DNA from: Natrinema saccharevitans
GTDB lineage: Archaea > Halobacteriota > Halobacteria > Halobacteriales > Natrialbaceae
Reading direction: 5' to 3'
Assembly (NCBI RefSeq): GCF_001953745.1
Contig: NZ_LWLN01000001.1
Coordinates: forward strand, 2,728,001 to 2,792,000
Length of the DNA stretch: 64,000 bases
Below, one piece after another: positions 7,069 to 53,337 of the stretch. The notes beneath the pieces were generated by a model. It was not told the origin of the DNA. It did not search any database and was given only the letters and a program-made list of their open reading frames with translations. Made by a program: the position numbers and the translations under genes. Within the stretch, counting starts at the first letter, position 1; every line of letters starts with the position of its first letter.

Positions 7069-7092
7069 AATTCCGCTTTCGACGCTCCCGCT

Positions 7093-15207: not shown

Positions 15208-15939
15208 CTAATTGTTGTTTTCAAATGTGTGTTTAACAGCCTCTTTTTCACACTGTGTAAGGCTTGTTGTATACCCGACCTTAGAATAGGTAACTGATCT
15301 CAAACAGTCTCCATTTGACCACTCGTCGTAACCATATCCGCCTAAGAGGGGACTAGCTACGCCATTATAGTATCCACTACTGTCAGAGAGAAGCGTACCG
15401 AGGAAATGATCACGGTTGGTTTGGTTATCGCAACAGTCAACATTACCAATCAGATTATCAACCTCATCAATAGCATTGTTTACAGTGGTGTGAAGAGCTT
15501 CATGTACTGTCCGATTAGCAATCCTGTTATAACCGTTGATATCATCAGTTCCTACGGTCGCGTGCCTTGAGGTTGTAAACGCCTGTGAACCGTTAGATCT
15601 AATAGTTGAATTTCCGAGACCCCCGCCGTGTTTATTAGTGACTGATAAATGCGTCCCTGCTTCCCCTACTTCGTTTTCTACCCATTCACCGAAATCATTG
15701 TGTGTGCTTTTTAATTCGGATCCGACACTGAGATCTGTTTCTTCTTCAAGGTTACCCACAAACCGGAACACCACAAATGAACTGATAATGTCCTCCCTGT
15801 ACAATGTATCACAAAAGTCAATCATGGCATCCTGTACTGTGGTATATAAGAGTCCCTCATCATCGCTTTCCCATGCGTAGAGGTACACTCTGTAGTCGTC
15901 TCCGATTCCATGCTTGTCGACTATCTCAAATTGCGCCAT
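15208..15939 (-). CDS. Putative zinc metalloprotease (HExxH) in AT-rich insert
   Basis: A 243-residue protein with HEALH at 146-150 in a helix-like setting (NRTVHEALHTTVNNAIDEV), the classic zincin motif. The downstream Asp- and His-rich segment (DCCDNQTNRDHF) could give the third ligand. There is no signal peptide, although two Tat substrates follow in the same operon. Four cysteines in the C-terminal third could pair. Protease activity is inferred from the motif alone; the rest of the sequence is unfamiliar to me. Confidence 0.6.
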   Translation of the reverse strand: MAQFEIVDKHGIGDDYRVYLYAWESDDEGLLYTTVQDAMIDFCDTLYREDIISSFVVFRFVGNLEEETDLSVGSELKSTHNDFGEWVENEVGEAGTHLSVTNKHGGGLGNSTIRSNGSQAFTTSRHATVGTDDINGYNRIANRTVHEALHTTVNNAIDEVDNLIGNVDCCDNQTNRDHFLGTLLSDSSGYYNGVASPLLGGYGYDEWSNGDCLRSVTYSKVGYTTSLTQCEKEAVKHTFENNN

Positions 15940-16247
15940 TCATAGGTGAAATTGATTGTTACGAACATGATACTTTCTGTTAAAACATACACACATTTTA
16001 ATATACTATATGTTAATAAGTTATAGTATAACGGGATAGTTCTAAATGCGCTCTATACGGATTGGCCCAGTAATACGCTCATTTTCCTTGTCACTATGAT
16101 AGCTCATATTTGCAGACGATTCATTCAAGTTTACAGACGCCAGCTCCTGCACTGAGTTTGAACAGTGGGTCTCGAAGTGCTATCGCAAATCAACACGCAC
16201 TCGACTGAGGGTGAACGGGTTGGGAATAGACCCTGAAATCATCCTCG
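15940..16247. other. AT-rich promoter region and right edge of the insert
   Basis: No gene is seen. Positions 15960-16030 are strongly AT-rich and probably hold the promoter of the three-gene minus-strand unit. ATGCGCTCTATACGG at 16044 resembles the loop of the stem-loop motif found three times in the tRNA-Phe island. GC content rises to the chromosomal level by about 16,140, so the insert border lies near there. Confidence 0.45.
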
Positions 16248-16475
16248 ATGACGCGACTGGTCGAACTCGAGACAAAGAGCCCTAAAAGCTCGAACCGGAC
16301 GACATCAACGACGAGAACGGCGACATGGCGGTCTGTCAGTGCGGCTCTTGGACGGCTTCCCCTTCTGTGACAGGAGCTACTGGCGGACCCACGACGAAGC
16401 GACGGAACAACCCACGTCTACGAGGACGAGGAGCAACGGGTCCTCGAGGAAGCGCTGGACCCTCGAGTAGCTGTT
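16248..16475 (+). pseudogene. Decayed CDGSH iron-sulfur gene, copy A
   Basis: This aligns base for base with the intact gene at 17181-17417 (same first 24 bases, ATGACGCGACTG onward). It has a one-base deletion near codon 12 and a further small length change after CAGTGCGG. The cluster-binding CDGSH has become CDRSY, losing the histidine ligand. It can no longer make a working protein. It is the separated partner of the copy A membrane gene. Confidence 0.8.
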
Positions 16476-16495
16476 CGGACGATTGCCCCGGAAGG

Positions 16496-16960
16496 AAAAG
16501 GGAGCGTGGGTGGGGGAGAAGGGGTACGACGGCAGGACCGCGGAACTCCATGGTTCAGCGCCGGTCGTCCCTGCCGTACACTCACTCACTCCGGAAGCAC
16601 GGATACGAGTGATCCAAATATATTTGACCGAGCACCGCCTCGGCGCGGCTCAGGTCACGTACAGGGAGTGCGCGATCACGAGGAACCCGGCCAGAACCAG
16701 CAGGCTCTCGAGGAGGATACCGGTCATCAGTGGGACGCCGAGTACCTCGTACAACATACCGGCGAGTACTAGACCGAGTGTAACGAGGCCGAAGCCGAGC
16801 GAGAGATAGCCCAGCGCGGACTGACGAGTGCGCCGATAGGCCTTGTAGGCAAAGAACGTAATGACGCCGCCGACGACGAGAACGAGCGTCTTGACGACCG
16901 CGAGGGCGATCGCGGTCGGCATTGCCGCGGCGGAGATCCACATAGCGATTTCTATCCTGA
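16496..16960. repeat. Right copy (B) of the segmental duplication, membrane-gene part
   Basis: Matches 12908-13375. Copy B is uninterrupted: the membrane gene, then about 240 bp, then the intact CDGSH gene in divergent orientation. It therefore shows the original layout of the duplicated unit (about 0.92 kb, to 17417). Confidence 0.75.
16650..16943 (-). CDS. DUF7521-like small membrane protein, copy B
   Basis: A 97-residue paralogue of 13066-13359 with the same three membrane segments. Substitutions are conservative (for example VLVVGG for VLIVGG, AHSLYVT for AYSLYVT), so both copies appear to be under selection. The start MWISAAAMPT at 16943 is supported by the matching copy. It is divergent from the CDGSH gene at 17181, with 237 bp between. 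Confidence 0.75.
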   Translation of the reverse strand: MWISAAAMPTAIALAVVKTLVLVVGGVITFFAYKAYRRTRQSALGYLSLGFGLVTLGLVLAGMLYEVLGVPLMTGILLESLLVLAGFLVIAHSLYVT

Positions 16961-17180
16961 TTTTCAATAGCCGAACCAAGAACCTTGCCGTTCCTGAAGG
17001 CGATGTTCCGTGCCACCACGACTCGTGGACAGTCGCCGATACTGGGAGTCGGCGTCGACGACCGATCACGGGATTACGGTCGTAACTGCTTTCGCCGTGG
17101 GGTGGCGCGCTGGCACGCCACACCGCCGTGACACGGCCGCGAGCGAACCGTTTTGACGACGGCGACACGAGACACACGCG

Positions 17181-17417
17181 ATGACGCGACTGGTCGAACT
17201 CGAGGCGAACGGCCCTCGGAAGCTCGAGCCGGACGACATCGACGACGAGAAGGGCGACGTGGCGGTCTGTCAGTGCGGGCTCTCGGACGACTTCCCCTTC
17301 TGTGACGGGAGCCACCGGCGGACCCGCGACGAGGCGGACGGTACGACGTACGTCTACGAGGACGGACAGCGACGAGAAGTCAAGCGGGTCGTGACGACTG
17401 ACGACGCGGAGGAGTAA
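17181..17417 (+). CDS. CDGSH iron-sulfur domain protein
   Basis: A 78-residue protein with one complete CDGSH site: C30, C32, C41 and H45 in CQCGLSDDFPFCDGSH, which holds a [2Fe-2S] cluster with a histidine ligand. Such small soluble proteins act in electron transfer or cluster handling. The C-terminal YVYEDGQRREVKRVV is basic. A dead copy lies at 16248-16475. It sits just before the copper-ATPase operon but on the other strand. Confidence 0.88.
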   Translation: MTRLVELEANGPRKLEPDDIDDEKGDVAVCQCGLSDDFPFCDGSHRRTRDEADGTTYVYEDGQRREVKRVVTTDDAEE

Positions 17418-17464
17418 GAGCACTCGAGCGTCCGTTTCCCGCCCCCATCACGGTGGCCCGCGTC

Positions 17465-19933
17465 TCACAGCGAGCGCGCGGAGTTACAGACGACGAGCAG
17501 GCTGCTCGCAGCCATCGCGACGGCGGCGAACAGCGGGTTCAACAGGCCGGCGACGGCTAGCGGGATCGCGACCGCGTTGTAGACGAATGCCCAGCCGAGG
17601 TTCTGCCGGATCCGTCGGTGGGTCGCCGTCGCCACGGCGAACGTCTCGCCGACGGCCGTGAGGTCGTCACCGACGATCACCGCGTCGGCCGCGTCCGTCG
17701 CGAGCTGTGTCCCTCCGCCCATCGCGATGCCGACGTCGGCCGCGGCCAGCGCGGGCGCGTCGTTGCTGCCGTCGCCGACCATCGCGACCGTCCCGCGGGC
17801 CCGGAGTCGGTCGACGGTCTCGGCTTTCGCCTCCGGCGGCACGCCCGCGAAGACTTCGTCGACGCCCTCGAGATCGCGGAAGCGCTCGGCCGCCGCTCCC
17901 TCGTCGCCGGTGAGGACGACGACCTCGTGATCCGCCGAGAGGTCGGTCAGGGCCGCCTCGAGGTCCTCGCGGGGCGAGTCTCCGACGACGACGACGCCGT
18001 GGACGTGGTCTTCCCAACCGACGACGACGGGCACGCGGCCCGCCGTTCGCGCGTCCTCTATCCGGGGCTCGAGTGCGTCGGGGATCGCCAGCCCGCGCTC
18101 CCGGCAGAAGTCGGGGTGGCCGACGACGACCCGGTCGCCGTCGACGCGGCCGCTGACGCCGCGGCTCGCCCGCTCGAATCCCTCGACGGCGCTGGCTGTC
18201 GTCGCATCGTCGGGTGCCGCGTCGGCGACGGCGGCCGCGACGGGGTGTTCGGAGAGGGCCTCGACCGCGCCGGCCCGCCGGAGCAGTTCCTCGCGGTCGG
18301 GGCCGTCGTCCCCGGCGTCCCCGGCGACCGTATGGACGGCGTCGACGGTCATCGTCCCGGTCGTGAGCGTCCCCGTCTTGTCGAGGACGACGGTATCGAC
18401 GTCGGGGGCGTCCTCGAAGATCGTCTCCGCGGCGACGACGATCCCCCGTTCGGCGGCGGACTGGATCCCCGCGGCGATGGCCAGCGGCGTCGCCAGCCCC
18501 AGCGCACAGGGACAGGAGACGATGACGACCGTGAGCCCGAGCAACAGCGCCGTCGCCGGGCTCGAGCCGGTCGCCAGCGAGACGGCGACCGTCCCGATGG
18601 CGAGGGCGATCACCAGCGGGACGAAGACGGTCGCGAGCTTGTCCGCGAGCCGCTGGACGCCCGGCCGGGAACTCTGGATCGACCAGAGCAGGGAGACGAG
18701 CCGGTCGAGGGTACTTTCCGCTTCGTCGCCGACCGCGACGACGAGCGGGGCGTCGGTGACGACGGTTCCCCCGCGGACCGGATCGCCCGGCCCCTTCTCG
18801 GCCGGCAGCGACTCGCCGGTGACCAGCGACTCGTCGACCGCGGCCGATCCCTCCGCGATCTCGCCGTCGAGGGGAACCCGCTCGCCGGGACGCACGAGCA
18901 GGCGGTCGCCGGGCTCGACCGCCTCGAGGGGTACCGTCTCGCCGCTCTCGCGGCGGGCCTCGTCGACCTGCCGTTCGGTCAGGTCGGAGAGCAGGCCGGT
19001 CGCGCGGCGCTTGACGATCCGTTCGTAGCGCCCGCCTGCGGTGACGACGAGGACGACGGCGACGGTGACGTCGAAGTAGAGGTGGGCGTTGCCGAGCAGG
19101 ATCGCGACGGCGCTGTAGCTATAGGAGCCGAGTGCCGCCGTCGCCACCAGTAGGTCCATGTTCGGGCTGCCGGCCCGGAGGCTAACGTACGCCCCCCGAA
19201 GGATCGGACCGCCGGTATAGAAGAGAATAATCGAGGTGAACACCCATATGTTCGCCGACAGAAAGGCGCTTTCGTACCCGCCGAAGTCGGCGACCGGCTG
19301 GTAGCCGAAGTACGTCGGGTAGAGAAACAGGACGTACCACATCATGACCATCATGCCGAAGAAACCGCCGAACAAGAGCGGCGCGAGCCCGTCGTCCGAG
19401 CCGCTCGTCTCGCCCGCGGCGGATCGGTCCGACGCGGTGTACCCGTATCCGGAGACGAGTTCCGGGAGGTCGTCGGTATCGAGTCGATCGGGATCGTAGA
19501 CGAGCCGAATCGTATCCGTCGCGTAGCTCGCCGTCGCGCCGCGGACCCCTGGTTCTCGCTCGGCGGTGGTCTCGAGGAACGCCTCACAGGTCGAACAGTG
19601 CATGCCGTCGACCGCGAGATAGGCGTCCTCTCCGTCGAGATCGTCGAGGTCAGGCCCGTCGTCTCCGGAATCGAGACGGGATTGGACCGCCGACTCGTCG
19701 GGTGCGTCGTCGGTCCCGTCGAGCGCGCGAGCGACCTCGAGACAGCCGCGACAGCAAAACGTTCCGTCGACGTCCGGGTCGGTGATCGGCTCCGCCGGCG
19801 TCGGCAGGTCACAGAGGTCGCAGGCGTCGGGGGCCGAGTCGCCGACCGCCGCCGTCCCGTCGGTCGCACTCGAGCCGTCGGTGTCGGCCGGTGACGACAT
19901 CGAACCCCCGGCGGGTGGTGAGTCCGGAGCCAT
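17465..19933 (-). CDS. Copper-translocating P1B-type ATPase (FixI/CcoI-like)
   Basis: An 822-residue heavy-metal P-type ATPase. The N-terminus has the cysteine domain CDLC (38-41) with FCCRGC (59-64) typical of ATPases tied to haem-copper oxidase assembly. A heavy-metal domain with MHCSTC (111-116) follows, then eight predicted membrane segments with the CPC motif (CPCALGLATP), DKTGT phosphorylation site and GDGSNDAPAL hinge. It starts 3 bp from the stop of the SafE-like gene, in an operon divergent from the ba3 oxidase genes. This suggests copper delivery to the oxidase rather than simple detoxification. Confidence 0.9.
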   Translation of the reverse strand: MAPDSPPAGGSMSSPADTDGSSATDGTAAVGDSAPDACDLCDLPTPAEPITDPDVDGTFCCRGCLEVARALDGTDDAPDESAVQSRLDSGDDGPDLDDLDGEDAYLAVDGMHCSTCEAFLETTAEREPGVRGATASYATDTIRLVYDPDRLDTDDLPELVSGYGYTASDRSAAGETSGSDDGLAPLLFGGFFGMMVMMWYVLFLYPTYFGYQPVADFGGYESAFLSANIWVFTSIILFYTGGPILRGAYVSLRAGSPNMDLLVATAALGSYSYSAVAILLGNAHLYFDVTVAVVLVVTAGGRYERIVKRRATGLLSDLTERQVDEARRESGETVPLEAVEPGDRLLVRPGERVPLDGEIAEGSAAVDESLVTGESLPAEKGPGDPVRGGTVVTDAPLVVAVGDEAESTLDRLVSLLWSIQSSRPGVQRLADKLATVFVPLVIALAIGTVAVSLATGSSPATALLLGLTVVIVSCPCALGLATPLAIAAGIQSAAERGIVVAAETIFEDAPDVDTVVLDKTGTLTTGTMTVDAVHTVAGDAGDDGPDREELLRRAGAVEALSEHPVAAAVADAAPDDATTASAVEGFERASRGVSGRVDGDRVVVGHPDFCRERGLAIPDALEPRIEDARTAGRVPVVVGWEDHVHGVVVVGDSPREDLEAALTDLSADHEVVVLTGDEGAAAERFRDLEGVDEVFAGVPPEAKAETVDRLRARGTVAMVGDGSNDAPALAAADVGIAMGGGTQLATDAADAVIVGDDLTAVGETFAVATATHRRIRQNLGWAFVYNAVAIPLAVAGLLNPLFAAVAMAASSLLVVCNSARSL

Positions 19934-43652: not shown

Positions 43653-43679
43653 TGTCCGCGAAGCCTGTCTTCGAGGACA
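43653..43679 (+). repeat. Possible degenerate cassette-border site (site 0)
   Basis: The ends TGTCCGCGAA and GAGGACA resemble the five sites described below, 27 bp long, but the middle differs. It would mark the left border of a single-gene cassette (43793-45238). Weak on its own. Confidence 0.3.
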
Positions 43680-43792: not shown

Positions 43793-45238
43793 TCACGTCA
43801 GCGCAACATCGATTTGCTTCGCTTCCTCGATAATCTTCTCGGCATTCTCAACCCACTCTTCTTCCGAATCCTCTGGAAAATACGCGCGATGGAGATACTG
43901 CCCGATCTCCTCTGCTGTGTAGTTCGGGTGCGCCCAATCGGTCAACTGATCGATACCGAATTTCCTCTTGATTACTTCGTTTTCCTCGATCAGAGTTTCC
44001 TTTTTAGTTGAAGGAAGATCAGGCAGAAAGAGATTCAGCGGGAGTACGCTCAACAGTTCGTCTGTGGAGAGATGGGACTCGATGAGTTTCTCTTTGAGAT
44101 TTAGCGTAGCTGCAACCTCGCCAGTGGTCAGCAAACCACGAGCTTCGATACCTCTGAGAATCCTCTCTGATGGCTCCGATTCCTCATACCGCTGTTTGAA
44201 AATAGAACCACCCTCGAATTTTGCTCTGTGAAGGGAAAGGACGCCATCTTCCTGATACTGTTCAAATGGCTCCTTGACAAATCGCTCGTAGAATTCATTG
44301 GTTCCCCAATTCTCGTCACAAACACAGAGTGTGAGACTAGTCATCCCGGCATTCACCATCATCGAACCCGTGTACACGTCATCACCGTTAGCTAGAACAG
44401 CCTCCTTGATGTCCTCGATTATCTTCGTATCATGTTGCATCTCATTGATGAGAATGAAATAATGCGTCTTGTCCGTCAAAACATAGTTGAGATCCTCCTC
44501 GAGTTCGATGAGCGCTTGTTGTATTCCATACTTGCTTAACTTCCCACCATCGTACAGTTGAGACAGTGTACTCCGGTATTCAGCTTCTTCCTCACGTTCT
44601 GAGGTCAACTTAGAGATGATAGTTTCTTTGTGGATATACTCGTGAATGAATCGATCCTTGAAGCACTCACTCTCCATGAATTCCTCATCTGGAGGGGCTA
44701 AATCATACGGTTCAGGTTTTCCACAGAGAAGTTGGTAGGCACCCCATGCAAGCCGAATATCGTCATTTGTTGGACGGACAAGACTGAAGCGGTCCAGACT
44801 CATTTGGAGTTTCTGCGATAACGAGGTTCGTTCATGGCTCTCAAGACGGAAGTCGGATTCTTCTTCGAGATATATGTAGAGGAGTGGAAGGTAGATATCC
44901 TCCTCTTCTTCGATCGCGACTGATTCGGCATAGTTGATGAGGTTCTCAGATCCTAGCGCTTTCAATTCAAAGATTTCGTCCTCAAATTTCGTTTCAAAGG
45001 ATTCAAGGATCTGATTAAATTCTGTAGTTCGTTCTCGGAGTTGGTCTCGATTCTCGGCCGCTTGCCACTGCTGCACCAGAGTATCATACTTCGGGAGGAT
45101 GTTTGCAAGAACGACTAGAATAGCTAGCATCCCAGGCGAGAGGATTGATAGATAGGTTAGGACACTCAAGATCGGGACCAAGACGATATTCAAGAACAGA
45201 GAGACGTAGTTTTGTTTTAGAAATGTGGAAACTCCCAT
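43793..45238 (-). CDS. Unknown protein with N-terminal membrane hairpin (possible cassette gene)
   Basis: A 481-residue protein. Two hydrophobic helices occupy residues about 11-50 (VSLFLNIVLVPILSVLTYLSILSPGMLAILVVLANILP). The remaining 430 residues are soluble, acidic and mostly helical, with no catalytic motif I recognise. Membrane-anchored unknowns of this size are frequent in defence regions. It lies just left of border site 1, perhaps as an older cassette if site 0 is real. Confidence 0.62.
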   Translation of the reverse strand: MGVSTFLKQNYVSLFLNIVLVPILSVLTYLSILSPGMLAILVVLANILPKYDTLVQQWQAAENRDQLRERTTEFNQILESFETKFEDEIFELKALGSENLINYAESVAIEEEEDIYLPLLYIYLEEESDFRLESHERTSLSQKLQMSLDRFSLVRPTNDDIRLAWGAYQLLCGKPEPYDLAPPDEEFMESECFKDRFIHEYIHKETIISKLTSEREEEAEYRSTLSQLYDGGKLSKYGIQQALIELEEDLNYVLTDKTHYFILINEMQHDTKIIEDIKEAVLANGDDVYTGSMMVNAGMTSLTLCVCDENWGTNEFYERFVKEPFEQYQEDGVLSLHRAKFEGGSIFKQRYEESEPSERILRGIEARGLLTTGEVAATLNLKEKLIESHLSTDELLSVLPLNLFLPDLPSTKKETLIEENEVIKRKFGIDQLTDWAHPNYTAEEIGQYLHRAYFPEDSEEEWVENAEKIIEEAKQIDVALT

Positions 45239-45355: not shown

Positions 45356-45383
45356 TGTCCGAGAATTACTGTAGAGTTGGACA
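45356..45383 (+). repeat. Cassette-border site 1
   Basis: 28 bp beginning TGTCCGAGAA and ending GTTGGACA, followed by AAAA. Left arm TGTCCGA; the right arm is one base off its complement. Preceded by GAGTATTG, similar to sites 3 and 5. Confidence 0.7.
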
Positions 45384-45423
45384 AAACCCATAGATTTGAC
45401 GAGGCCTGATTTACACTACTAAC

Positions 45424-46293
45424 TCAGTTCCCGAACTGCGCTCTTGGTGATCGCTCTGTCTCGAGATAGTGCGCACCGATCAGGTCGGTTTCGACCTCGG
45501 TTCGCTTGTGCTTCGCATCCATTCCATCTGGAGTAGCTACTGAAAATAGAGCCTCACTGCCGAATGTTTTCTCGTGTTGTCGTAGTCGCTTTGTGAACGC
45601 TTTCGTCTCGCCGGTATACGCCAGCGGTGGCGCGTCATTTTCGTACCAGATCCGGTAAACACCTGCCTCGGGTAGATCCGGCTCGAGTCGATCTCCAAGC
45701 CGATAGGGGCCACTCCACTCGAGACCCATCCAATCTGACGCAGTCACATCGTCCACGTTTTTCCACGGAACTGGTCCTCGGCCGGGTTCGGTGTTTGGCT
45801 CGGTCTCTCCCTCCTCGAGGGGGCCACCAACGTACCCATCACTTCGATATCCCGACTGTGAGTAGCCGGGGATGATCCGCCCGAAGTTCGCGGTCGGACT
45901 TTTGCCCATTTCGCGACGTGCAATCGCGATGAGGGCTTGCTCGAGCCCCTTCCGGTCCTGATCGTGGGTTGCGAACGACGGCGTCGCGGTCGATACTTCG
46001 AACGCCGGTCCGTCTCGATCACGAACTGCCCAGAGGCACGGTGCAGCTGTATGCGGATCGCGAAACGGCATCTCTTCGGAGTAGACGTTCCGGGCCAGTG
46101 CGCTTACCCGCCCGCGTGTACTCCGGCCGGTTTGACCGATGTACTCGAGGCCGTTACGGTCACGATGGCGAACGCGATAGAGTCCTGGATCAGTCGAGAT
46201 CGCCGTCAACTCATCGTCTGTTGGATCAAGAGATAGCCAGTCACTCCAATTCACCCTCATCCAGTCGTCTGCATACAGATCTCGTTCATTCAT
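45424..46293 (-). CDS. Protein with two GIY-YIG nuclease domains
   Basis: A 289-residue protein with two GIY-YIG units: GLY (37-39) with YIG (51-53), R60/R62 and E118 in LEQALIAIARR; and GVY (211-213) with YTG (226-228), R236/R238 and a following E in EVETDLIGAHYL. Each unit is preceded by a WxxLxW-type strand (WSDWLSL, WMGLEW). GIY-YIG enzymes cut DNA. Two units in one chain could cut both strands. The start at 46293 is used; ATG 46311 would overlap the upstream gene more. Part of cassette 1 with DUF6884 and a PD-(D/E)XK protein. Confidence 0.8.
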   Translation of the reverse strand: MNERDLYADDWMRVNWSDWLSLDPTDDELTAISTDPGLYRVRHRDRNGLEYIGQTGRSTRGRVSALARNVYSEEMPFRDPHTAAPCLWAVRDRDGPAFEVSTATPSFATHDQDRKGLEQALIAIARREMGKSPTANFGRIIPGYSQSGYRSDGYVGGPLEEGETEPNTEPGRGPVPWKNVDDVTASDWMGLEWSGPYRLGDRLEPDLPEAGVYRIWYENDAPPLAYTGETKAFTKRLRQHEKTFGSEALFSVATPDGMDAKHKRTEVETDLIGAHYLETERSPRAQFGN

Positions 46294-46718
46294 GTCTGTT
46301 CGTTGTACCATGCAAGCCGCTCACCTATCATTAATCCCTCAGTCGGAATCTGTATCTGGACGTTGTGTTCTTCGAGGAGGGGAAGCAATTCCTCGTAGTA
46401 CGCTTTCCCCGCATGGAATACGAGGGTGATATCCGATTCGAGCAAACCTGCTGCCTTCAGATCGTCATACACGGTTTGGGACCACTCTCGCTTTCGTGCT
46501 ACTCGAGCGCCAGTGAGAGTCTCGTCGTAGGGCTCGATCAGCGGACCATTCGGTTCAAGAAGATGGTGTTTAGCTGAAAGGACGTACCAGTCGTCGTGGT
46601 GATGTTCACAGTACCGGCGTACTTTGCTGAACAGCGTTGACGGGCTGTACAGCTCACTCGGTGGTGCTGGTTGCTCGCGTTTCGTCTTCGAACAGCTTAC
46701 TAGTCCGATTTCGGTCAT
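46290..46718 (-). CDS. DUF6884-like protein
   Basis: A 142-residue protein with the pattern IGLVSCSKTKR, LYSPSTLFSKVRRYCEHHHDDWYVLSAKHHLLEP and IEPYDETL, which I recognise as the DUF6884 group. The fold is related to the nucleoside-handling domains of archaeosine or queuosine enzymes. Its stop touches the start of the GIY-YIG gene, so the two are coupled. In mobile DNA such proteins may modify or sense modified bases; that role is inference. Confidence 0.68.
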   Translation of the reverse strand: MTEIGLVSCSKTKREQPAPPSELYSPSTLFSKVRRYCEHHHDDWYVLSAKHHLLEPNGPLIEPYDETLTGARVARKREWSQTVYDDLKAAGLLESDITLVFHAGKAYYEELLPLLEEHNVQIQIPTEGLMIGERLAWYNEQT

Positions 46719-46725
46719 TGTTTGA

Positions 46726-47334
46726 TCACTCGACGATCTCCCACGTGATGACAGCGCCTTGCTGATGAACGGGATGCTGTAACTCGTCGAAGTAGGCGAT
46801 ATTCCTCGTTTCTACTTGGAACTCGTACCAGTGATCCACGTCCATACAGAACTTCTCGGCAACTGCCTCGGCAGTCATTTGCTCGTACTCTTCGTCGACT
46901 TTTTCGTAATAGAGGCCGAGTACTCCGCCGTTTGATCCGAACTCTGACTCGTAGAGTTTCTTCGTATCGGTAAGTAGTGACGAGGAACTCCGTTCAGGAA
47001 ACGGCGTGAAGATCCGCGCGAAGCTGTTCGGATCGATGTTTCCATTATCGTACCGGAACCGGAGTAGCTTGGCCTCCACTGGAAGCTGACGCCCGTCGTG
47101 ATCAAGAAAAAGATCGCATCGTCGTGAACCCTCGAGGTACGACACTTCAGTCTCGATAGCTTCTCGAAGCGGGTGGCCCTCAAGCGCCTCGAGAATCATT
47201 TCGATCTGATTCTCTTCCTCGAATGGGCCAATTCCAGGTTTCCATCGGTCGTGTTCAGCATCTGTATCGACATCCGGAATTACAGACGCAAATGAGTTAG
47301 CCAGTTGACCAAGAGGGCCAGGTTTGTTACTCAT
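46726..47334 (-). CDS. PD-(D/E)XK-type nuclease-like protein
   Basis: A 202-residue protein. D74 in RRCDLFLD and E87-A88-K89 in QLPVEAKLL have the spacing of a PD-(D/E)XK active site, and E45/E49 in the first helix (IEMILEAL) fits the usual N-terminal acidic residue. First gene of cassette 1, 7 bp ahead of DUF6884. It could be a restriction-type endonuclease; no methyltransferase lies in the cassette. Site 2 lies about 50 bp upstream of its start. Confidence 0.68.
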   Translation of the reverse strand: MSNKPGPLGQLANSFASVIPDVDTDAEHDRWKPGIGPFEEENQIEMILEALEGHPLREAIETEVSYLEGSRRCDLFLDHDGRQLPVEAKLLRFRYDNGNIDPNSFARIFTPFPERSSSSLLTDTKKLYESEFGSNGGVLGLYYEKVDEEYEQMTAEAVAEKFCMDVDHWYEFQVETRNIAYFDELQHPVHQQGAVITWEIVE

Positions 47335-47384
47335 GATTACCTACTAATGTCCTATCCGTCTACAAATGATTCGTCATTTCAGCC

Positions 47385-47412
47385 TGTCCGAGAATACGAA
47401 CAGAGCCGGATA
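47385..47412 (+). repeat. Cassette-border site 2
   Basis: 28 bp beginning TGTCCGAGAA and ending GCCGGATA; the right arm has two changes from the complement of the left arm. It lies between the start of the PD-(D/E)XK gene and the next cassette. Confidence 0.65.
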
Positions 47413-47538
47413 GACATCATGAGTTATAGCATAGATCATATGTTTAACATAGGTTATATGTCTGAAGCGGCTCACTGAATTTAATACTGGAGAAGATTTT
47501 CCGGGCGAATTAATACGGTCTGTTTGTGAGGGTGAACA

Positions 47539-48111
47539 ATGGACGAGCCGGAATGGATGACCGTTTTACGGATATTTTGGGAAGAGAATCTCGGGTTTGA
47601 ATATTCACCCCACTCAGAGGAGTGGGAGAGATTCATTCCCGACCGTGATGAATTGGAGGATATAAACACATCAGACCATGCCCAAGGCCTCCTAAAATCA
47701 GGTCATCTTGAAGTTGAAGACGTGGATGCCAGCCATGATCCGTCAGTTTCGTTTGATAGTTTGCCTGTAGTCCGGATCTCCGAAAAGGGGATTCAGACGA
47801 TCCGGGAATGGGAAACCATGAAAAAACAAGCGCAATGGGAACAGCAATTACTAGAGACTCAGGAACAGTATGAAGAGAGCCGGCTTAGGAGACAACAGCA
47901 GTTTGAAAAAGAACAGGTTACGAGATCTAACGAAGTGAACGCCGCTGTCGGATATCTCACGATTGGCTTATTGATTGTGACCCTTTCGGATGTCGTCCTA
48001 TCTGTGGATCAATCCTTGGTTCCAATATGGGTTATCATTGGAATCACGCTTTCGGTAGTCTTGGGTTTGATATACAGAATACGGAAATCGGGGCTTCTAA
48101 ATCCAGAATAG
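47539..48111 (+). CDS. Single-gene cassette: HTH-like, coiled-coil, two-helix membrane protein
   Basis: A 190-residue protein. Residues about 1-88 could be a winged-helix-like head (DHAQGLLKSGHLEVEDV, PVVRISEKGIQTIREWETM). Residues 90-130 form a coiled coil (WEQQLLETQEQYEESRLRRQQQFEKEQ). Two membrane helices follow (about 135-152 and 160-178). It is the only gene between sites 2 and 3. It may be a membrane-acting effector or a sensor; unknown. Confidence 0.6.
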   Translation: MDEPEWMTVLRIFWEENLGFEYSPHSEEWERFIPDRDELEDINTSDHAQGLLKSGHLEVEDVDASHDPSVSFDSLPVVRISEKGIQTIREWETMKKQAQWEQQLLETQEQYEESRLRRQQQFEKEQVTRSNEVNAAVGYLTIGLLIVTLSDVVLSVDQSLVPIWVIIGITLSVVLGLIYRIRKSGLLNPE

Positions 48112-48178
48112 TGACCCTACGGCTGGTCTCTGTGGACGTAACGCATTAAATTCGCATATGTACTTAGCGGGAGTTTTG

Positions 48179-48206
48179 TGTCCGAGAACTCGGGGAAAAG
48201 TGGAAG
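48179..48206 (+). repeat. Cassette-border site 3
   Basis: It begins TGTCCGAGAACTCGG. The expected right arm is degraded (GTGGAAG), but an intact TCGGACA occurs at 48232-48238, giving a longer 60-bp palindromic-ended site. It is preceded by GAGTTTTG as in sites 1 and 5. Confidence 0.6.
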
Positions 48207-48312
48207 AGCAGTGCCGATAAAGGGTGCAATTTCGGACATCCTGATCTGGTAAATGCAGACACCGATTTAGTGCTGGTTATTCTACCGGGTCTGAAATGAA
48301 TTCAGGATGCCA

Positions 48313-48333
48313 TGCTGAATAGAGGGCGCAAAT
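48313..48333 (+). repeat. Stem-loop motif copy 1
   Basis: TGCTGAATAGAGGGCGCA onward, matching the motif at 50668 and, on the other strand, at 52536-52563. It lies between site 3 and the TOPRIM gene. Confidence 0.4.
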
Positions 48334-48414
48334 ACTTCACGGTTGGGTAGTTACACGGAGTTGGCGAATTGGTCAGTGCAGATCGAGCAGTTAGCACTGG
48401 ATTGCTTGTGGCAT

Positions 48415-49008
48415 CTACAAATATAACACGTCAATAAGTGCATCCACTTCGTCTGGCTGATCTTTGAAATACTGTTCAGCTTGATATTTTTTCTTGCTGA
48501 ATTCCACCCCATATGACATACCAGTTGCTGTCTCCATATCATTATAGAATGCAATAATTGTGGGTTCATCAAATACATCACCGTTCCCCTCCAACGAACA
48601 TTCTTTAATTACGAAGTCGTCTGTGAATTGCGAATTCCCTTTCGCGGCTAATGAAATTTGGCTACCCCATTCATCCCACAAAGAACTGTTCAGACTGTCT
48701 AACACAGCACTAAAACTACTATCGTCGTCCATGTCGAGCATCAGTACTGAATCTAAGCCTTTCTCTCCAATTGAGGGTCCTTCACGAGCGTATATATCCT
48801 CTAATTCTGACCGCCCTCCTTCACACTTGTATAAATAAGAAATCGAAGTGCCAATTCGGTGCTGACGTATTCGCTGTGTCTGCGTTTCATCACTCTCCTC
48901 GTTATTGAACCGATCACAGTATTCCTCCACACCTGATCGAGTGTGAAGTTGCTCAAGAAAGGCCAAGTCATTGATTCCCTCAGTAAAAACAATCGTATCA
49001 CCCTGCAT
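48415..49008 (-). CDS. TOPRIM-type protein, partner of AAA ATPase (OLD/PARIS-like)
   Basis: A 197-residue protein. E10 in IVFTEGINDLAFLEQL and D92-x-D94 in VLMLDMDDDS are placed like the TOPRIM catalytic residues. It follows the AAA gene directly: the AAA stop TAG is next to this ATG. In OLD-family nucleases and PARIS, an ATPase works with a TOPRIM unit, fused or separate; here they are separate. It is probably the nuclease or toxin arm of a phage-defence pair. Confidence 0.68.
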   Translation of the reverse strand: MQGDTIVFTEGINDLAFLEQLHTRSGVEEYCDRFNNEESDETQTQRIRQHRIGTSISYLYKCEGGRSELEDIYAREGPSIGEKGLDSVLMLDMDDDSSFSAVLDSLNSSLWDEWGSQISLAAKGNSQFTDDFVIKECSLEGNGDVFDEPTIIAFYNDMETATGMSYGVEFSKKKYQAEQYFKDQPDEVDALIDVLYL

Positions 49009-50355
49009 CTATTGGCCTCTAAGATCCAAGTTGAGGTCATTCATATCTTCCTTTGCATCTTCGTAAGATAAGGATCGATTCATAGGTTCTGTTAGTTGGA
49101 AAAGGCAGAATTCATTTTGTAGGTACTCCCCATATTGATTTCGAACTTCTTTGGATATGAATGATTCTAAGAAGTCAGTATTGTGTGTTGTGATAAATAA
49201 TTGTAGTTCTTCTTCCCTCGAAATCTGGATTAAGGTACGTGTTAGTTGTTCTATATACCCTGGATGCATATGCTGTTCCGGTTCTTCGATTAAGAGAACA
49301 TCACCGTCATTAGATTCATCAAACAGTTCCCAGAGAATGCCAACAATTGTTTTGAAACCATCACCCATAAACTCAAATGGGACATCATATGGTGCCCCCT
49401 CCTTATTTTTAAACACAAGGTCAGTGAATGAGAAATCCTCCAGAGAATCTACAAGATCATGTTCCTGAAGGTAATTTTCAACCCTGCTTACTCGAATAGG
49501 ATTATCTTCGTAATTGATCTCCTCTGCTTTTGTAGGAATTTCATTGAGGTAATGAATACCACTGACTGTCGGGAAAGATCCACCAAAAAGCTGTACTCTT
49601 TTAGAGTGCCTGTTTGAAAATACGGAGCTAGTTAGACGGAAGAGGGCTTGAGATTCGGACTCTTCCCCGGGCGTTTCATTGACGATTCGTTCATCATCAA
49701 GTAGAGTCTCAGTAGCACTTTCTACAATCTGACGGATGACCTCTTGATAACTCTTGCTAGCAGAAAATAGATACCGTTGTTGGTCTTCAATCTTGACAGC
49801 CAGAACGTCATCCGAAAGAAGGTCGATTATTTTTTCCTCAGGTATCGACAGCAGCGAATCTGTAAGTACTTCATTTAGAATCTTTGCGAGGGCCATCTCA
49901 TCTGGACGATCGCTCCTACGTGCATCCTGACTAAGTTGCAAATTGCCACGGTGGAGTGGGAATAGCCTTAACTGGGCTGTTTCTTCTGGTATTTCCTGAC
50001 TGATTTTCCTGATTGCTGCTTCATAGACTTCCTCGTCGCTAGCTTGGCGGATTTTTACTGACTGAGTAAGTGGGTTACTTGGGTTCCCCTCCTCATCATA
50101 TTGCTCGAACGAGAGTTGTTCACGCCAATATTCGCCATGTAGCGAAGTCTCCCCTCTTTGTTTGTTGATTACTGCCGTAGCGCGATCTTCAAAGTTCTCT
50201 AAAGTAGTAGGGTCTGATAACACCGCGATAGCTTCCAGAAGGGATGTTTTTCCGGCGTTGTTCCGGCCAGTGATGATGTTTAGTTTACCCGGCTCTATTG
50301 AGGTTGACTGGATACCCTTGAATCCCTTGACATCAAGTTTAGTGAGCCGGACCAT
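49009..50355 (-). CDS. AAA/ABC-type ATPase of the OLD (overcoming lysogenization defect) class
   Basis: A 448-residue SMC-like ATPase. LTKLDVKGFKGIQ opens the fold, Walker A is GRNNAGKTS (30-38), FMGDGFKTIVGIL is the signature region, Walker B is VLLIEEPEQHMHP and the H-loop is FITTHNTDFL. The middle is helical. With the TOPRIM gene it forms a two-gene unit that fills cassette 3 between sites 3 and 4. Comparable pairs block phage by sensing infection and triggering nuclease action; the exact class (split OLD, Gabija-like or PARIS-like) is undecided. Confidence 0.8.
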   Translation of the reverse strand: MVRLTKLDVKGFKGIQSTSIEPGKLNIITGRNNAGKTSLLEAIAVLSDPTTLENFEDRATAVINKQRGETSLHGEYWREQLSFEQYDEEGNPSNPLTQSVKIRQASDEEVYEAAIRKISQEIPEETAQLRLFPLHRGNLQLSQDARRSDRPDEMALAKILNEVLTDSLLSIPEEKIIDLLSDDVLAVKIEDQQRYLFSASKSYQEVIRQIVESATETLLDDERIVNETPGEESESQALFRLTSSVFSNRHSKRVQLFGGSFPTVSGIHYLNEIPTKAEEINYEDNPIRVSRVENYLQEHDLVDSLEDFSFTDLVFKNKEGAPYDVPFEFMGDGFKTIVGILWELFDESNDGDVLLIEEPEQHMHPGYIEQLTRTLIQISREEELQLFITTHNTDFLESFISKEVRNQYGEYLQNEFCLFQLTEPMNRSLSYEDAKEDMNDLNLDLRGQ

Positions 50356-50556
50356 GCGTTATAGGTCGTTTCTCCGGCACACGTTTTATTCCTGTCCCTC
50401 CTTTCACGCTAGGCAAGTTCAATGAGCGGTAGGCTTAATCAATTTGATGCGAAACGAACGTAGCCATCGTACTGAACCCATCCTATGCTTTCAGCACTTG
50501 ACAAGCATCAATACCACTAATCGCGTTCAAGAATTCCATGACAGTCGGTCAAGCAG

Positions 50557-50584
50557 TGTCCGAGAACTCGGAGAAAGTCGGATA
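50557..50584 (+). repeat. Cassette-border site 4
   Basis: 28 bp beginning TGTCCGAGAACTCGGAGAAA and ending GTCGGATA; the right arm is one base from the perfect complement. Confidence 0.7.
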
Positions 50585-50666
50585 GGAGATCGTGAACCAG
50601 CGGTAAGTACAGGCGAAGGCGTTACCGGAGCAGCTGCTTATCTCTCGGATAGGCGTCAGAAACGAC

Positions 50667-50695
50667 CTGCTGAATATAGAGGATGAGTTCAGCAG
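50667..50695 (+). repeat. Stem-loop motif copy 2
   Basis: CTGCTGAA and TTCAGCAG form an 8-bp stem around TATAGAGGATGAG. Same core TGCTGAATA as at 48313 and 52536-52563. Confidence 0.45.
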
Positions 50696-50892
50696 ACCGT
50701 CCCATCGACGATCAAATAGGTGATCCGTCCTTTCGAAGAGACAAAACCTGAGATGTGTATTCTGCCTGGATTGACGACGTAATCCTTGTTATTCGTCAAA
50801 ATATTCGCAGTTCCGTACTTTGTGGAAACACGTGTGTCATAAGATTTAAGATACTTTGGGCGGATTACCGGTTCCTTAGTAATCTTCTTACA
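50689..50892 (-). pseudogene. Possible gene remnant without a start codon
   Basis: A 67-codon open stretch on the minus strand ending in a stop. It reads protein-like (YLKSYDTRVSTKYGTANIL, then NNKDYVVNPGRIHISGF) but has no ATG or GTG in frame after the preceding stop. It could be the C-terminal end of a lost cassette gene. Weak. Confidence 0.25.
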
Positions 50893-50918
50893 CTATGAAT
50901 CCATAGTCTCCTACTAAA

Positions 50919-51584
50919 ATGGTTCAATCAGGTCTAATTATTCCTATAGCTACAGGTAGTGTAGTGGCTACTTTTAGTGTTATTCTAACCATATTTGCAC
51001 AAAATAGAATAAATAAACTAAGATACGCTACAGGAGTTAGAGAAGAAATTTACGAAAATAAGAAAAAAGTCACCGATCTAGGCGTTGACTTGATAGATAA
51101 TATCGTTTCACGTGAGACAGGCATGAATAAGATGAGTCCTCGCTATCGAGATCCAAATATGACATCTACTAGTATAGAGTTCGACACTTCTGCTTATGCT
51201 GCGATGAAAAATAGCGGATTTTTAAACAATTTGGGGGATGACAATAAAATATTATTGAGAGAGCATTATAATAAATTGGAACTGATTAACCAGGAACTCA
51301 ATGATAGGGAAGCAATTCGTGCAAACGGGAAGAGTTGGGATAATAAACGCTATAATGAAATGATTCTGACGCATGAGCGCTCAGCACTCCAGCTATTATT
51401 ACATATTTGTTCTGAAGAATTATTTCTAGAAATACTTGAGGAGACCCGCTTGGGGGAACAAAGATTAATTGGATTCAAAGAAACTAGGGAATTAGATCTG
51501 GAAGATACAGCTAACTTTGATACGGCAATTAATAGTATGGATCAAGAACTTGAAAAAGATTTTCTTAGTCTTTTGATGAGGTGA
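50919..51584 (+). CDS. AT-rich cassette gene with N-terminal membrane helix
   Basis: A 221-residue protein with one membrane helix (about 4-26), basic NRINKLRYATGVREEIYENKKKV after it, and a helical soluble part. Codon use is extremely AT-rich, even beside other cassettes, pointing to a distant donor. Its stop lies inside the 3' end of the convergent gene (20-bp overlap). Unknown; the anchored helical build resembles effector or immunity proteins. Confidence 0.58.
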   Translation: MVQSGLIIPIATGSVVATFSVILTIFAQNRINKLRYATGVREEIYENKKKVTDLGVDLIDNIVSRETGMNKMSPRYRDPNMTSTSIEFDTSAYAAMKNSGFLNNLGDDNKILLREHYNKLELINQELNDREAIRANGKSWDNKRYNEMILTHERSALQLLLHICSEELFLEILEETRLGEQRLIGFKETRELDLEDTANFDTAINSMDQELEKDFLSLLMR

Positions 51585-52425
51585 TCCAGATTTCTTTTCC
51601 CTTGTTAGTGATTAAAAGGCCTGATGAAATTTTTTCTGTAGTTATATTTTTTCCTGTGTCATATTCGGTCAGATATCCGCCTTCAATATTTTTAGGAATT
51701 ATTGGATAGCTATTCGTGCCCGCATATGACCCCGCAAGTTCTACACTACCAAATCCAAGTAAGGTAACATAGAGCTGTACTGGGCCTTCTGGATCAAACT
51801 CGGATAGATATGACAAACCAGCTGATGAGAAATTAATGACATCATCTCGGAGGCGTTCAATAGGAAACCTCCAATCTGAGTACGTAGAATCTACTAATTC
51901 AATCCATCCGTGTCGAGATATACAGATGTATTCCATATTTTCAAATAGATTACTTGTTTTAATAAAATACTTTTCACCGCTATTTGTGATCGTAGATGTT
52001 GGATTTTGAATTACCATAGAATCATTTGGTAATTCAGAGACGGTATTGACAAGGGGTTGGTCTTCTTTTGAGCAAAATAAATGGAAAGCAACAACCGGTT
52101 GTTTATCAATTTCAACCAAATTAGTCGATGAACTTTGTAGAAACTCTAATCTGCTTTTGTAGATCTCGTGAGGTTTACGAGAGACTTGGACTTGAGTAAA
52201 CCCCCCAGCATTTTCAACTTTTTTTCTGTATTTTTGAGTGTAATCTAATATATTAGTATTCTCTGATGGTGATTCTTTTTGATAAAGATCTCCGTCACCA
52301 TTAGTAGTCCAGACATTGATTGACCAATGTGTGCCTCCTTTATCAACTTTGATGTATCCATTATTGTGTAGTAGATGAGCCTCTTGATAGTTTTCTCGTA
52401 TTATCCAATTCTCAGATTCTCTCAT
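51565..52425 (-). CDS. AT-rich cassette gene, unknown soluble protein
   Basis: A 286-residue protein rich in beta-strand-like segments and aromatic residues (WIIRENYQEAHLLHNNGYIKVDKGGTHWSINVW, GPVQLYVTLLGFGSVELAGSYAG). It resembles bacterial conflict proteins in style but has no motif I can name. It converges with and overlaps the 3' end of the membrane-helix gene by 20 bp, so the two may be a sense-antisense or toxin-immunity pair. Strongly AT-rich. Confidence 0.57.
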   Translation of the reverse strand: MRESENWIIRENYQEAHLLHNNGYIKVDKGGTHWSINVWTTNGDGDLYQKESPSENTNILDYTQKYRKKVENAGGFTQVQVSRKPHEIYKSRLEFLQSSSTNLVEIDKQPVVAFHLFCSKEDQPLVNTVSELPNDSMVIQNPTSTITNSGEKYFIKTSNLFENMEYICISRHGWIELVDSTYSDWRFPIERLRDDVINFSSAGLSYLSEFDPEGPVQLYVTLLGFGSVELAGSYAGTNSYPIIPKNIEGGYLTEYDTGKNITTEKISSGLLITNKGKEIWITSSKD

Positions 52426-52535
52426 GTTTTTCAGTATAGGTCGTTCTACTCAGATGAATATGGTAGATACATCAGTATCACTTTATCGCCTACACGTTAC
52501 TGTCTGAAGAAGCAATCTCGTATTTCAAGCTAATC

Positions 52536-52563
52536 GTGCTATATGCGCTCTGTATTCAGCACG
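52536..52563 (-). repeat. Stem-loop motif copy 3 (inverted)
   Basis: CGTGCT and AGCACG form the stem; read on the minus strand the loop begins TGCTGAATACAGAGCGCATA. It lies about 75 bp before border site 5, in opposite orientation to the two other copies. Confidence 0.45.
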
Positions 52564-52636
52564 ACCCTACAAACCCCGTTCGAACCTGATAGAACGCTTG
52601 CTGGTCAATAAGCATACGTAGTTATCACAAGAGTTG

Positions 52637-52664
52637 TGTCCGAGAAGTCAGACAGAGTCGGACA
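52637..52664 (+). repeat. Cassette-border site 5 (best copy)
   Basis: 28 bp with perfect 7-bp arms TGTCCGA and TCGGACA around 14 bp, followed by AAAA. It lies 86 bp upstream of the recombinase start. Confidence 0.75.
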
Positions 52665-52722: not shown

Positions 52723-52748
52723 TGTCCGGAATGCAGGCAACCCGGACG
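52723..52748. other. attI-like dyad at the recombinase start
   Basis: TTGTCCGG, 12 bp, CCCGGACG: an inverted repeat related to the cassette-border arms and ending just before the recombinase ATG. It could be the primary insertion site or an operator for the gene. Confidence 0.4.
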
Positions 52749-52749
52749 C

Positions 52750-53337
52750 ATGAATCTCCAACAGCACGAGAACCGCGACGACATGAAGGTCTGGCTTAGC
52801 CAGAACGAAGTAGAACAATTTCTCGAGGCGTCCGACGATACCCAGCAGCGGATCGCGTTCGCACTCGGGGCGCGGTGCGGCCTCCGCTCACACGAAGTCC
52901 TCGATATTGCGCCGGAGGATATCGTCGATACTGACGCCGGAACGATGCTCCGTGTCTGGCACGGCAAGGGCGATAAGTTCCGAGAGACGCCGGTCCCGCG
53001 CGATCTTGCGACGACCATCCGCACGGTCGACGACGTGCGCGACGCGCCAACCAGCTCGTCACTCGTCGAGATTACAAGTACGCGGTCACTCCGGCGGTGG
53101 GTTCGATCGACTGCCGACCAGTTGCATGAGGAGACAGGCGATGCTGGATGGGATCACCTCGGCTTCCACGATCTCCGCCGGACCTGGGCGACTGCACTCG
53201 CTTCCGATGATGTTGATCCGCTTTTAGTCTGTGACTGGGGCGGATGGAACGATCTCGAAACCTTCCTGGAGCATTATCGAGGTAGCTACAGCCCCGAAGC
53301 ACAGCAACGTGAACGCGGCAAAGTCAGCTGGCTATAA
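52750..53337 (+). CDS. Minimal tyrosine recombinase (cassette recombinase candidate)
   Basis: A 195-residue catalytic domain with all expected residues: R46 in GARCGLRSHEV, K73/K76 in HGKGDKF, H140 and R143 in FHDLRRTWAT, W163 in CDWGGW and nucleophile Y176 in LEHYRG. The usual N-terminal core-binding domain is missing or very short, so site recognition may need a partner or differ from standard integrases. It starts just after a border-like dyad and is transcribed away from the cassette array. It is not adjacent to the island att sites. Confidence 0.85.
   Translation: MNLQQHENRDDMKVWLSQNEVEQFLEASDDTQQRIAFALGARCGLRSHEVLDIAPEDIVDTDAGTMLRVWHGKGDKFRETPVPRDLATTIRTVDDVRDAPTSSSLVEITSTRSLRRWVRSTADQLHEETGDAGWDHLGFHDLRRTWATALASDDVDPLLVCDWGGWNDLETFLEHYRGSYSPEAQQRERGKVSWL

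Follow-up and report, generated by a model that had tools for sequence, protein, structure and literature searches.

The window, by which the whole analysed stretch of 64,000 nucleotides from the 3.98-Mb genome of Natrinema saccharevitans is meant, carries a short tyrosine recombinase gene. 28-bp sites in the same orientation run upstream of this gene and bound low-GC segments of one to three genes. Calculated in steps of 1 kb, the GC content was 0.36–0.55 between ∼39 and 55 kb, 0.59–0.69 to the left and 0.60–0.67 from 56 kb onward. Sites of the 28-bp type (class 1) were located by pattern scans and with a weight matrix (PWM), and a 27-bp type (class 2) by a separate pattern scan. The following features were identified:

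43653–43679 (+): perfect class-2 site (0 mismatches), left of the array, the only class-2 match in the window
45356–45383 (+): class-1 array site with 1 arm mismatch, the leftmost detected (pattern scan, PWM)
45384–47384: cassette 1, three ORFs, all on the minus strand
45424–46311 (−): cassette 1, GIY-YIG protein (Pfam)
46290–46718 (−): cassette 1, DUF6884 protein (Pfam), PDC-M57A in PADLOC
46726–47334 (−): cassette 1, ORF of unknown family
47385–47412 (+): array site, 2 arm mismatches, core TACGAAC (pattern scan, PWM)
47413–48178: cassette 2, single ORF 47539–48111 (+) without Pfam match
48179–48206 (+): degenerate array site with an intact left arm and decay in the right arm (pattern scan; PWM, score 18.0)
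48207–50556: cassette 3, ATPase and 197-aa neighbour
48415–49008 (−): cassette 3, 197-aa neighbour of the ATPase, no family match
49009–50355 (−): cassette 3, AAA_21/AAA_15 ATPase (Pfam), AbiLi/AriA-like in PADLOC
50557–50584 (+): array site, 2 arm mismatches (pattern scan, PWM)
50585–52636: cassette 4, ORFs 50919–51584 (+) and 51565–52425 (−) without Pfam match
52637–52664 (+): platform (attI-like) 28-bp site, TGTCCGAGAA-GTCAGAC-AGAGTCGGACA, kept in 38/38 homologues, left edge of the unit common to genomic copies in two of three pairs
52724–52747 (+): 24-bp dyad GTCCGG-N12-CCGGAC, ending 2 nt before the ATG, kept in 36/38 homologues
52750–53337 (+): tyrosine recombinase, 195 aa, predicted to consist of the catalytic domain only (PF00589, alignments, predicted structure)

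With up to 3 mismatches, 10 matches to the 28-bp pattern were obtained in the window, compared to a mean of 2.85 in shuffled sequence (0/100 shuffles reached 10). Eight of these matches correspond to the five array sites, three of which were read on both strands, and two are unrelated. The core TACGAAC of the site at 47385 recurs at the same cassette end in the genomes G042 and G062. Three of the eight cassette proteins in the window matched Pfam families (GIY-YIG, DUF6884 and the AbiLi/AriA-related AAA ATPase). A 481-aa ORF (43793–45238, −) fills the gap between the class-2 site at 43653 and the first class-1 site, therefore a segment bounded by class 2 may form the beginning of the array. 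Stretches of ∼80–95 bp beside array sites (∼50600–50694 and 52541–52624) recur at ∼76–94% in dozens of Natrialbaceae genomes and are perhaps small repeats or IS ends.

The recombinase gene and its protein

The original prediction placed the start of the gene at 52723, which is 27 nt too early, as M1-N2-L3 encoded from the ATG at 52750 are invariant across 14 aligned relatives. The resulting protein matched PF00589 over residues 15–178 of 195 (E 1.4e-18, profile search). In an alignment of 19 sequences, with identities down to 32%, R46, K73, H140, R143, W166 and Y176 were invariant, as were G44, E49, R78, D141, R144, G164 and G165; in a set of 17 sequences, one of them a viral-contig protein of 32% identity, W166 and certain other residues were only nearly invariant. 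Of the six catalytic positions proposed originally, R46, H140, R143 and Y176 hold, and K73 rather than the alternative K76 is the lysine. The tryptophan had been assigned to W163, which is off by three, because position 163 is variable (W, H, M, L and A among the 19 sequences, Y in one row of the 14 relatives) and W166 aligns with the histidine of the LGH motif in the archaeal Xer protein 4a8e. Both the R-K-H-R-(H/W)-Y residues and the fold place the 195-aa protein among the tyrosine recombinases. The N-terminal core-binding domain that simple tyrosine recombinases have in addition to the catalytic domain is absent from it.

An AlphaFold model built on the 17-sequence alignment reached a pLDDT of 83.7 and a pTM of 0.81 (an earlier model from a shallower alignment, with a pLDDT of 47.5, was unusable). 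In fold comparisons, residues 10–194 of the model aligned with residues 100–283 of XerA (5hxy; Z 18.2, rmsd 3.4, 172 aligned), followed by the integron integrase IntI4 (Z 17.3, rmsd 3.8, 175 aligned) and the Tn1549 integrase (Z 16.7, rmsd 3.2, 182 aligned). Since only the C-terminal part of XerA is covered, the protein is predicted to consist of the catalytic domain and a C-terminal helix without core-binding domain. Archaeal XerA proteins have the nearest solved sequences and the same catalytic-domain fold, but their chains are 292 and 317 residues long, owing to the N-terminal part absent here. An N-terminal domain hidden upstream of the ATG was ruled out, because a 28-bp site lies 108–131 bp before the start in all 38 homologues tested and leaves no room for it. 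The proposal of a stand-alone catalytic domain lacking the core-binding domain is therefore borne out by the PF00589 match, the invariant residues, the predicted fold and the position of this site.

The integron-integrase profile TIGR02249 gave 37 bits (cut-off 265), restricted to residues 3–95, and the IntI matches of the recombinase end before the region of the IntI-specific additional domain near patch III. In the recombinase of Natrialba aegyptia (L025), an unrelated sequence takes the place of the stretch preceding the conserved QQRERxKVxWL end.

Platform sites, arrays and a second site class

The platform site is located 113 bp before the ATG of the window recombinase. With a rule of GTCCG...CGGAC that allowed no more than 1 mismatch over both 5-mers, its counterpart was identified 108–131 bp upstream in 38/38 homologues fetched, including Halobellus, Salinarchaeum and Salinibaculum (letter-shuffled mean 0.3, largest 2), although these homologues are kin to one another and such counts are not independent. 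By the same rule, a 24–25-bp counterpart of the start-codon dyad was present in 36/38 (letter-shuffled mean 0.15, largest 2). In the upstream regions compared, the dyad and the nearby site were thus kept, and no full N-terminal domain was encoded there. The attI-like organization, the dyad at the start codon and the resemblance of its arms to the cassette-border arms were all predicted correctly. The dyad had also been proposed as the primary recombination site, and this is probably not the case. This role was dropped since it is the 28-bp site ∼113 bp upstream that the array sites and cassette borders match; the dyad itself is 24 bp long and has a fixed spacing. Judged from the sequence, the primary site is more likely the 28-bp dif-like site at 52637–52664, and the dyad may be an autoregulatory binding site. 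In the weight matrix, information was high in the arms and low at positions 11 and 13–17, which form the core; with 28 bp, 11-bp arms and a variable centre the site has the layout of pdif sites. A scan for bacterial sigma-70 promoters and terminators, a method unsuited to archaea, was uninformative.

Three near-identical copies of the recombinase (95–96% at the amino acid level) and a fourth at 47% are encoded in the genome of the window. The DNA of the three is 89–91% identical over 698–742 bp. In two of the three pairs the similarity begins exactly at the 28-bp dyad 113 bp before the ATG, in the third pair 41 bp before this dyad, and it ends no more than a few bases away from the stop codon (e.g. 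53337 in the window). Among 46 3′ ends compared by eye, some of them one locus counted twice, the DNA past the stop codon looked mostly unrelated, with a few related pairs. The last site was followed by the recombinase or a recognizable decayed copy in 19 of 22 loci examined, a selection-biased set, as most were picked through the recombinase. Eight loci were fetched for their sites alone, without a recombinase match: a decayed recombinase was present at the end in five (L104, L111, L113, L115, L120), and neither recombinase nor remnant in three (L064, L119, L121). At the nine-site array of G060 (L104), the end recombinase has a large internal deletion and a stop, and the adjoining 28-bp site is kept. 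An inverted second recombinase copy (∼82% to the unit) was observed at L108:4230–4854, in the same stretch as the platform in G072.

Among 125 Natrialbaceae genomes, the 28-bp pattern with at most 2 mismatches was present in 51 (152 matches over both strands), and a backwards-pattern control gave 0 matches in all 125. A pattern one base short matched in 5/125 genomes and is not a clean control, since at least one of its matches is a real platform site beside a recombinase remnant. The PWM scan of 25 loci (425 kb), which were chosen for sites or recombinases, yielded 73 hits, whereas shuffling the letters of each locus once left 0; because sites of these very genomes had served to train the matrix, the shuffle and not the hit count is the control. 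All hits within a locus had one orientation, save one near-palindromic site read both ways. When 18 loci were scanned with their own site, all extra hits with at most 4 mismatches lay upstream in the orientation of the gene, and the downstream hits had 5–6 mismatches, which is chance level.

As in integrons, a primary site next to the recombinase gene from which an array extends was observed in the window and several relatives. Within the DNA examined, the primary site stood alone in 12 of 18 platforms and a further site was present in only 6; in N. ejinorense, further sites are located at −1020, −3717 and −4521. The 54 intersite intervals from 18 loci were 247–3,524 bp long with a GC content of 0.38–0.62, and their longest ORF of at least 35 aa was on the plus strand in 24, on the minus strand in 29 and absent in 1. 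At least two sites were found in 18 of 43 genomes with a clade-1 recombinase match (fragments included) versus 11 of 82 others, a comparison biased towards a link, because the platform site itself is counted. As these 11 genomes are without a clade-1 match, part of the arrays must be either relics or supplied with recombinase in trans. The arm subtype of distal sites does not always agree with that of their own platform, as in the nine-site array of G060. Counting fragments and other clades, relatives of the recombinase were found in 114 of the 391 genomes sampled from the class, spread over 42 of 86 genera.

From the other arrays, 20 proteins were picked by hand out of 46 of at least 120 aa, and 11 of these 20 had no family match. 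The matches comprised an AspBHI-like restriction enzyme, a methyltransferase, a hydrolase, a maltose-acetyltransferase-like protein, a regulator, a symporter, a GIY-YIG protein, one IS1595 transposase and a sub-threshold DUF4352. PADLOC matched 3 of 10 cassette proteins tested. An outer inverted repeat, CTGTACTTACCGC / GCGGTAAGTACAG, was observed at about −25 and +45 of some sites (L104, L105, L121 and others) and is absent on the recombinase side of the window platform. Its complementarity within cassettes was 5.65 on average (n = 54), compared to 5.18 (sd 0.17) on re-pairing (0/300); pairs across boundaries were likewise raised (5.49, n = 36), and a few cassettes drive the signal, so the repeat is no more than a lead. 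A clean empty site was not obtained: the flank beside a tRNA-Tyr gene matched in 29/29 genomes of the genus, but between the copy in G000 and the occupied one a stretch of ∼340 bp is replaced. Flank searches within the genus for two further loci gave shared flanks and no clean empty site.

A second clade of recombinases, 42–47% identical, has the 27-bp site TGTCCGCGAA-N7-TTCG(A/C)GGACA ∼114 bp upstream. This class-2 site was present in 11/11 clade-2 loci read, in some with a few mismatches, and its pattern matched in 44/125 genomes, with a single match of the backwards control. Directly before the start, a lone cognate arm GAGGACA was seen by eye in 11/11 loci, which may be regulatory. Related tails in some loci led to rejection of the idea that the C-terminal extensions in clade 2 are read-through into flanking DNA. 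Among five homologues at 38–44%, L230 has a 28-bp dyad at −142 and L234 an imperfect dyad, and none was seen in the others. Upstream of six homologues at 32–35% no site of either class was found; L238 has a different dyad at −107. Therefore, the organization belongs to these clades and not to small haloarchaeal recombinases generally.

At L063, a second array in the genome of the window is located near a full-length integrase gene (15937–16950). The array lies between two similar stretches of ∼500 bp (6542–7150 and 17175–17704), both matching one stretch of L110. The IMG/VR contig L267 shares flanks with this array, therefore proviruses or integrative elements may carry some of the platforms. 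A viral origin was rejected: one viral contig has a close relative (91%), with flanks in common with chromosomal arrays. The exact 28-bp pattern was found in 0 viral contigs, and two narrow viral scans gave no relatives of the recombinase. Weak matches occurred in 3 phage records, and relatives at 30–46% on further viral contigs; of four upstream regions inspected on the latter, one had a class-2 site and in three no site was seen. Recombinase relatives were also found on 34 plasmid records, 30 of them with less than 60% identity.

Cassettes in common between genomes

The genomes G067 and G074 have a 749-bp cassette in common that is 96.4% identical, as cassette 4 of 6 in G067 and as the sole cassette in G074. 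The similarity begins 1 bp before the left site and ends 14–15 bp into the right site, the neighbours differ on both sides, the left core is identical and the right core is different. Both arrays are at the same chromosomal locus, with outer flanks at 84–90% and recombinase units at 85%. Therefore, this cassette arrived or was exchanged after the split and is younger than its surroundings.

Cassette 1 of the window was identified in G042 at the same chromosomal locus (92% over 1,989 bp, flank 84%), and G050 and G062 carry matches to its last ∼800 bp. At the right end, similarity stops after the left arm in G050, continues across the core into a decayed right arm in G042, where no intact site is left at this end, and spans the whole site in G062. 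The left end is common only from ∼60 bp inside the cassette. A third cassette, encoding a restriction endonuclease, is common to G060 and G077 (94% over 1,338 bp; recombinase units 80%), and common flanks were absent within the stretches compared. In G060 it has class-2 sites at both ends and lies inside a class-1 array; in G077 there is a class-2 site at its left end, and the similarity stops ∼50 bp before the right-hand site. For two of these three best common cassettes, the arrays thus occupy one chromosomal locus, and the cassette is not in a new place.

For 15 common blocks of at least 200 bp, 13/30 ends were within 45 bp of a site centre (random mean 4.6, 0/2,000), five of the 13 being one cassette end in five pairs. 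With one row per cassette, 7/14 ends were at sites (random mean 1.8, 3/5,000). The ends away from sites (17/30 and 7/14, respectively) are read as older rearrangement and divergence.

A proposed cassette-capture platform and its relation to known systems

The locus is best explained as a haloarchaeal integron-like cassette-capture platform with a catalytic-domain-only recombinase that acts on short sites with variable cores, to which a probability of roughly 0.8 is assigned. It is read as neither a classical integron nor a pdif module. The conserved organization of gene, site and dyad, the same-orientation arrays, the cassette homology that in several cases ends at sites and the decay of genes beside kept sites are directly visible in the DNA. 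The 195-aa protein would be the enzyme and would bind the two inverted 10–11-bp arms of the 28-bp site and exchange strands around the ∼7-bp core. A circular cassette with one site, the putative intermediate, would be inserted at, or excised from, the platform site beside the recombinase gene. The cassette array, split by direct repeats of the site, would in this way extend in the direction leading off from the gene. The core sequence varies among sites, and in common cassettes the core stays with the left-hand or the right-hand neighbour, therefore exchange would have to tolerate non-identical cores. Staggered cleavage could leave an unpaired, heteroduplex core that is later resolved by replication, so that the core would end up with either neighbour. 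The recombinase may also bind the start-codon dyad and repress its own gene; this dyad would overlap the start of a leaderless or short-leader transcript, and binding there should therefore repress the gene.

Another explanation, which is considered unlikely, is that a host Xer-type recombinase acts on the 28-bp sites as on pdif-like modules and that the small recombinase is a mere passenger. Site length and layout indeed equal those of the dif/pdif modules described for Acinetobacter, in which 28-bp sites of two 11-bp arms and a variable 6-bp centre bound genes (PMC6449649), and the arrays persist where the small recombinase is decayed or absent. However, a dedicated recombinase gene is located at the array end, its offset to the site is near-fixed in 38/38 and a dyad with similar arms is present at the start in 36/38, and the second clade is accompanied by another site class at a similar offset, a difference that a single host Xer would not account for. 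Moreover, the sites of an array point one way, whereas pdif modules alternate in orientation.

It is very unlikely that recombinase and site form a mobile unit of ∼700 bp of their own and that the neighbouring sites reflect its past insertions and decay instead of capture. Three copies at 95–96% in one genome, whose similarity starts at the site or 41 bp upstream of it and reaches the stop codon, are consistent with such a unit, as are the recombinase remnants that abut sites. Yet in blastn comparisons, recombinase similarity within arrays was nearly always at the end site (the inverted copy at L108 being an exception), and a site-to-site cassette is common at higher identity than the adjoining recombinase. 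Least probable of all is a role of the 28-bp repeats in regulation or as promoters, or an origin as small-transposon ends, in ordinary defence-island clutter: defence-like genes do occur among the cassettes and sequences of ∼85–95 bp beside two window sites recur in many genomes, but the site is no fixed-direction promoter because the longest cassette ORFs point either way relative to it (24 +, 29 −), the G067/G074 cassette ends at the site core, and 1 transposase (IS1595 type) was found among 28 cassette proteins scanned.

The cassette-capture platform shares with integrons (IntI, attI, attC) a tyrosine recombinase, an adjacent primary site, an extending cassette array, the occurrence of recombinase-less arrays and much unknown cargo. 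It differs in the length of the recombinase, 195 aa without core-binding domain and far under the integron-integrase cut-off, in the sites, 28-bp dif-like dyads whose arms are conserved and whose core varies, and in the cassette genes, which are in both orientations. In integrons, attC sites have borders with the motif RYYYAAC/GTTRRRY and a folded bottom strand. This motif, which alone was compared, is not in the 28-bp consensus, and a few cassettes have an outer inverted repeat. In the account of Ghaly et al. (2022; PMC9668308), archaeal integrons are reported only in MAGs and with an IntI that has the IntI-specific domain; its main text contains no word beginning with "halobacter". A literature search of titles and abstract openings, with subscription journals mostly outside reach, gave no comparable haloarchaeal cassette system.

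The layout of the 28-bp site is that of dif or lox sites. The proposed tolerance of unlike cores would be unlike Xer, Cre and lambda and would resemble Tn916/Tn1549. FimB/FimE, of ∼200 aa and with little else than a catalytic domain, are similar to the 195-aa recombinase, but they invert one segment and have no cassette arrays. The Tn1549 integrase, which is among the closest folds of the model, is described as melting the crossover region and recombining without extended homology (PMC5871717). Non-identical crossover regions recombine in Tn916/Tn1549 (PMC5871717), and the cores here likewise differ in sequence. The Tn1549 integrase has a core-binding domain (PMC5871717) and brings one element to scattered targets, whereas platform arrays are observed here. 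It is somewhat more likely than not that Halobacteria evolved, separately from integrons, a family of platforms with catalytic-domain-only recombinases and at least two coexisting classes (28 and 27 bp) that share hosts and sometimes arrays; each recombinase would repress itself via a copy of its site arm next to the start codon.

Modular gene capture is classically exemplified by integrons, and integron-like devices let cells swap useful genes in and out. The comparable platform described here sits in named genome records of haloarchaeal strains, as opposed to the metagenome bins of PMC9668308. If active, it would supply haloarchaea with strain-specific genes and offer a test of how DNA is found and synapsed by a catalytic domain alone. 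It would also be one of the rare cases in which a tyrosine recombinase joins unlike cores. Its activity is directly testable in genetically tractable halophiles.
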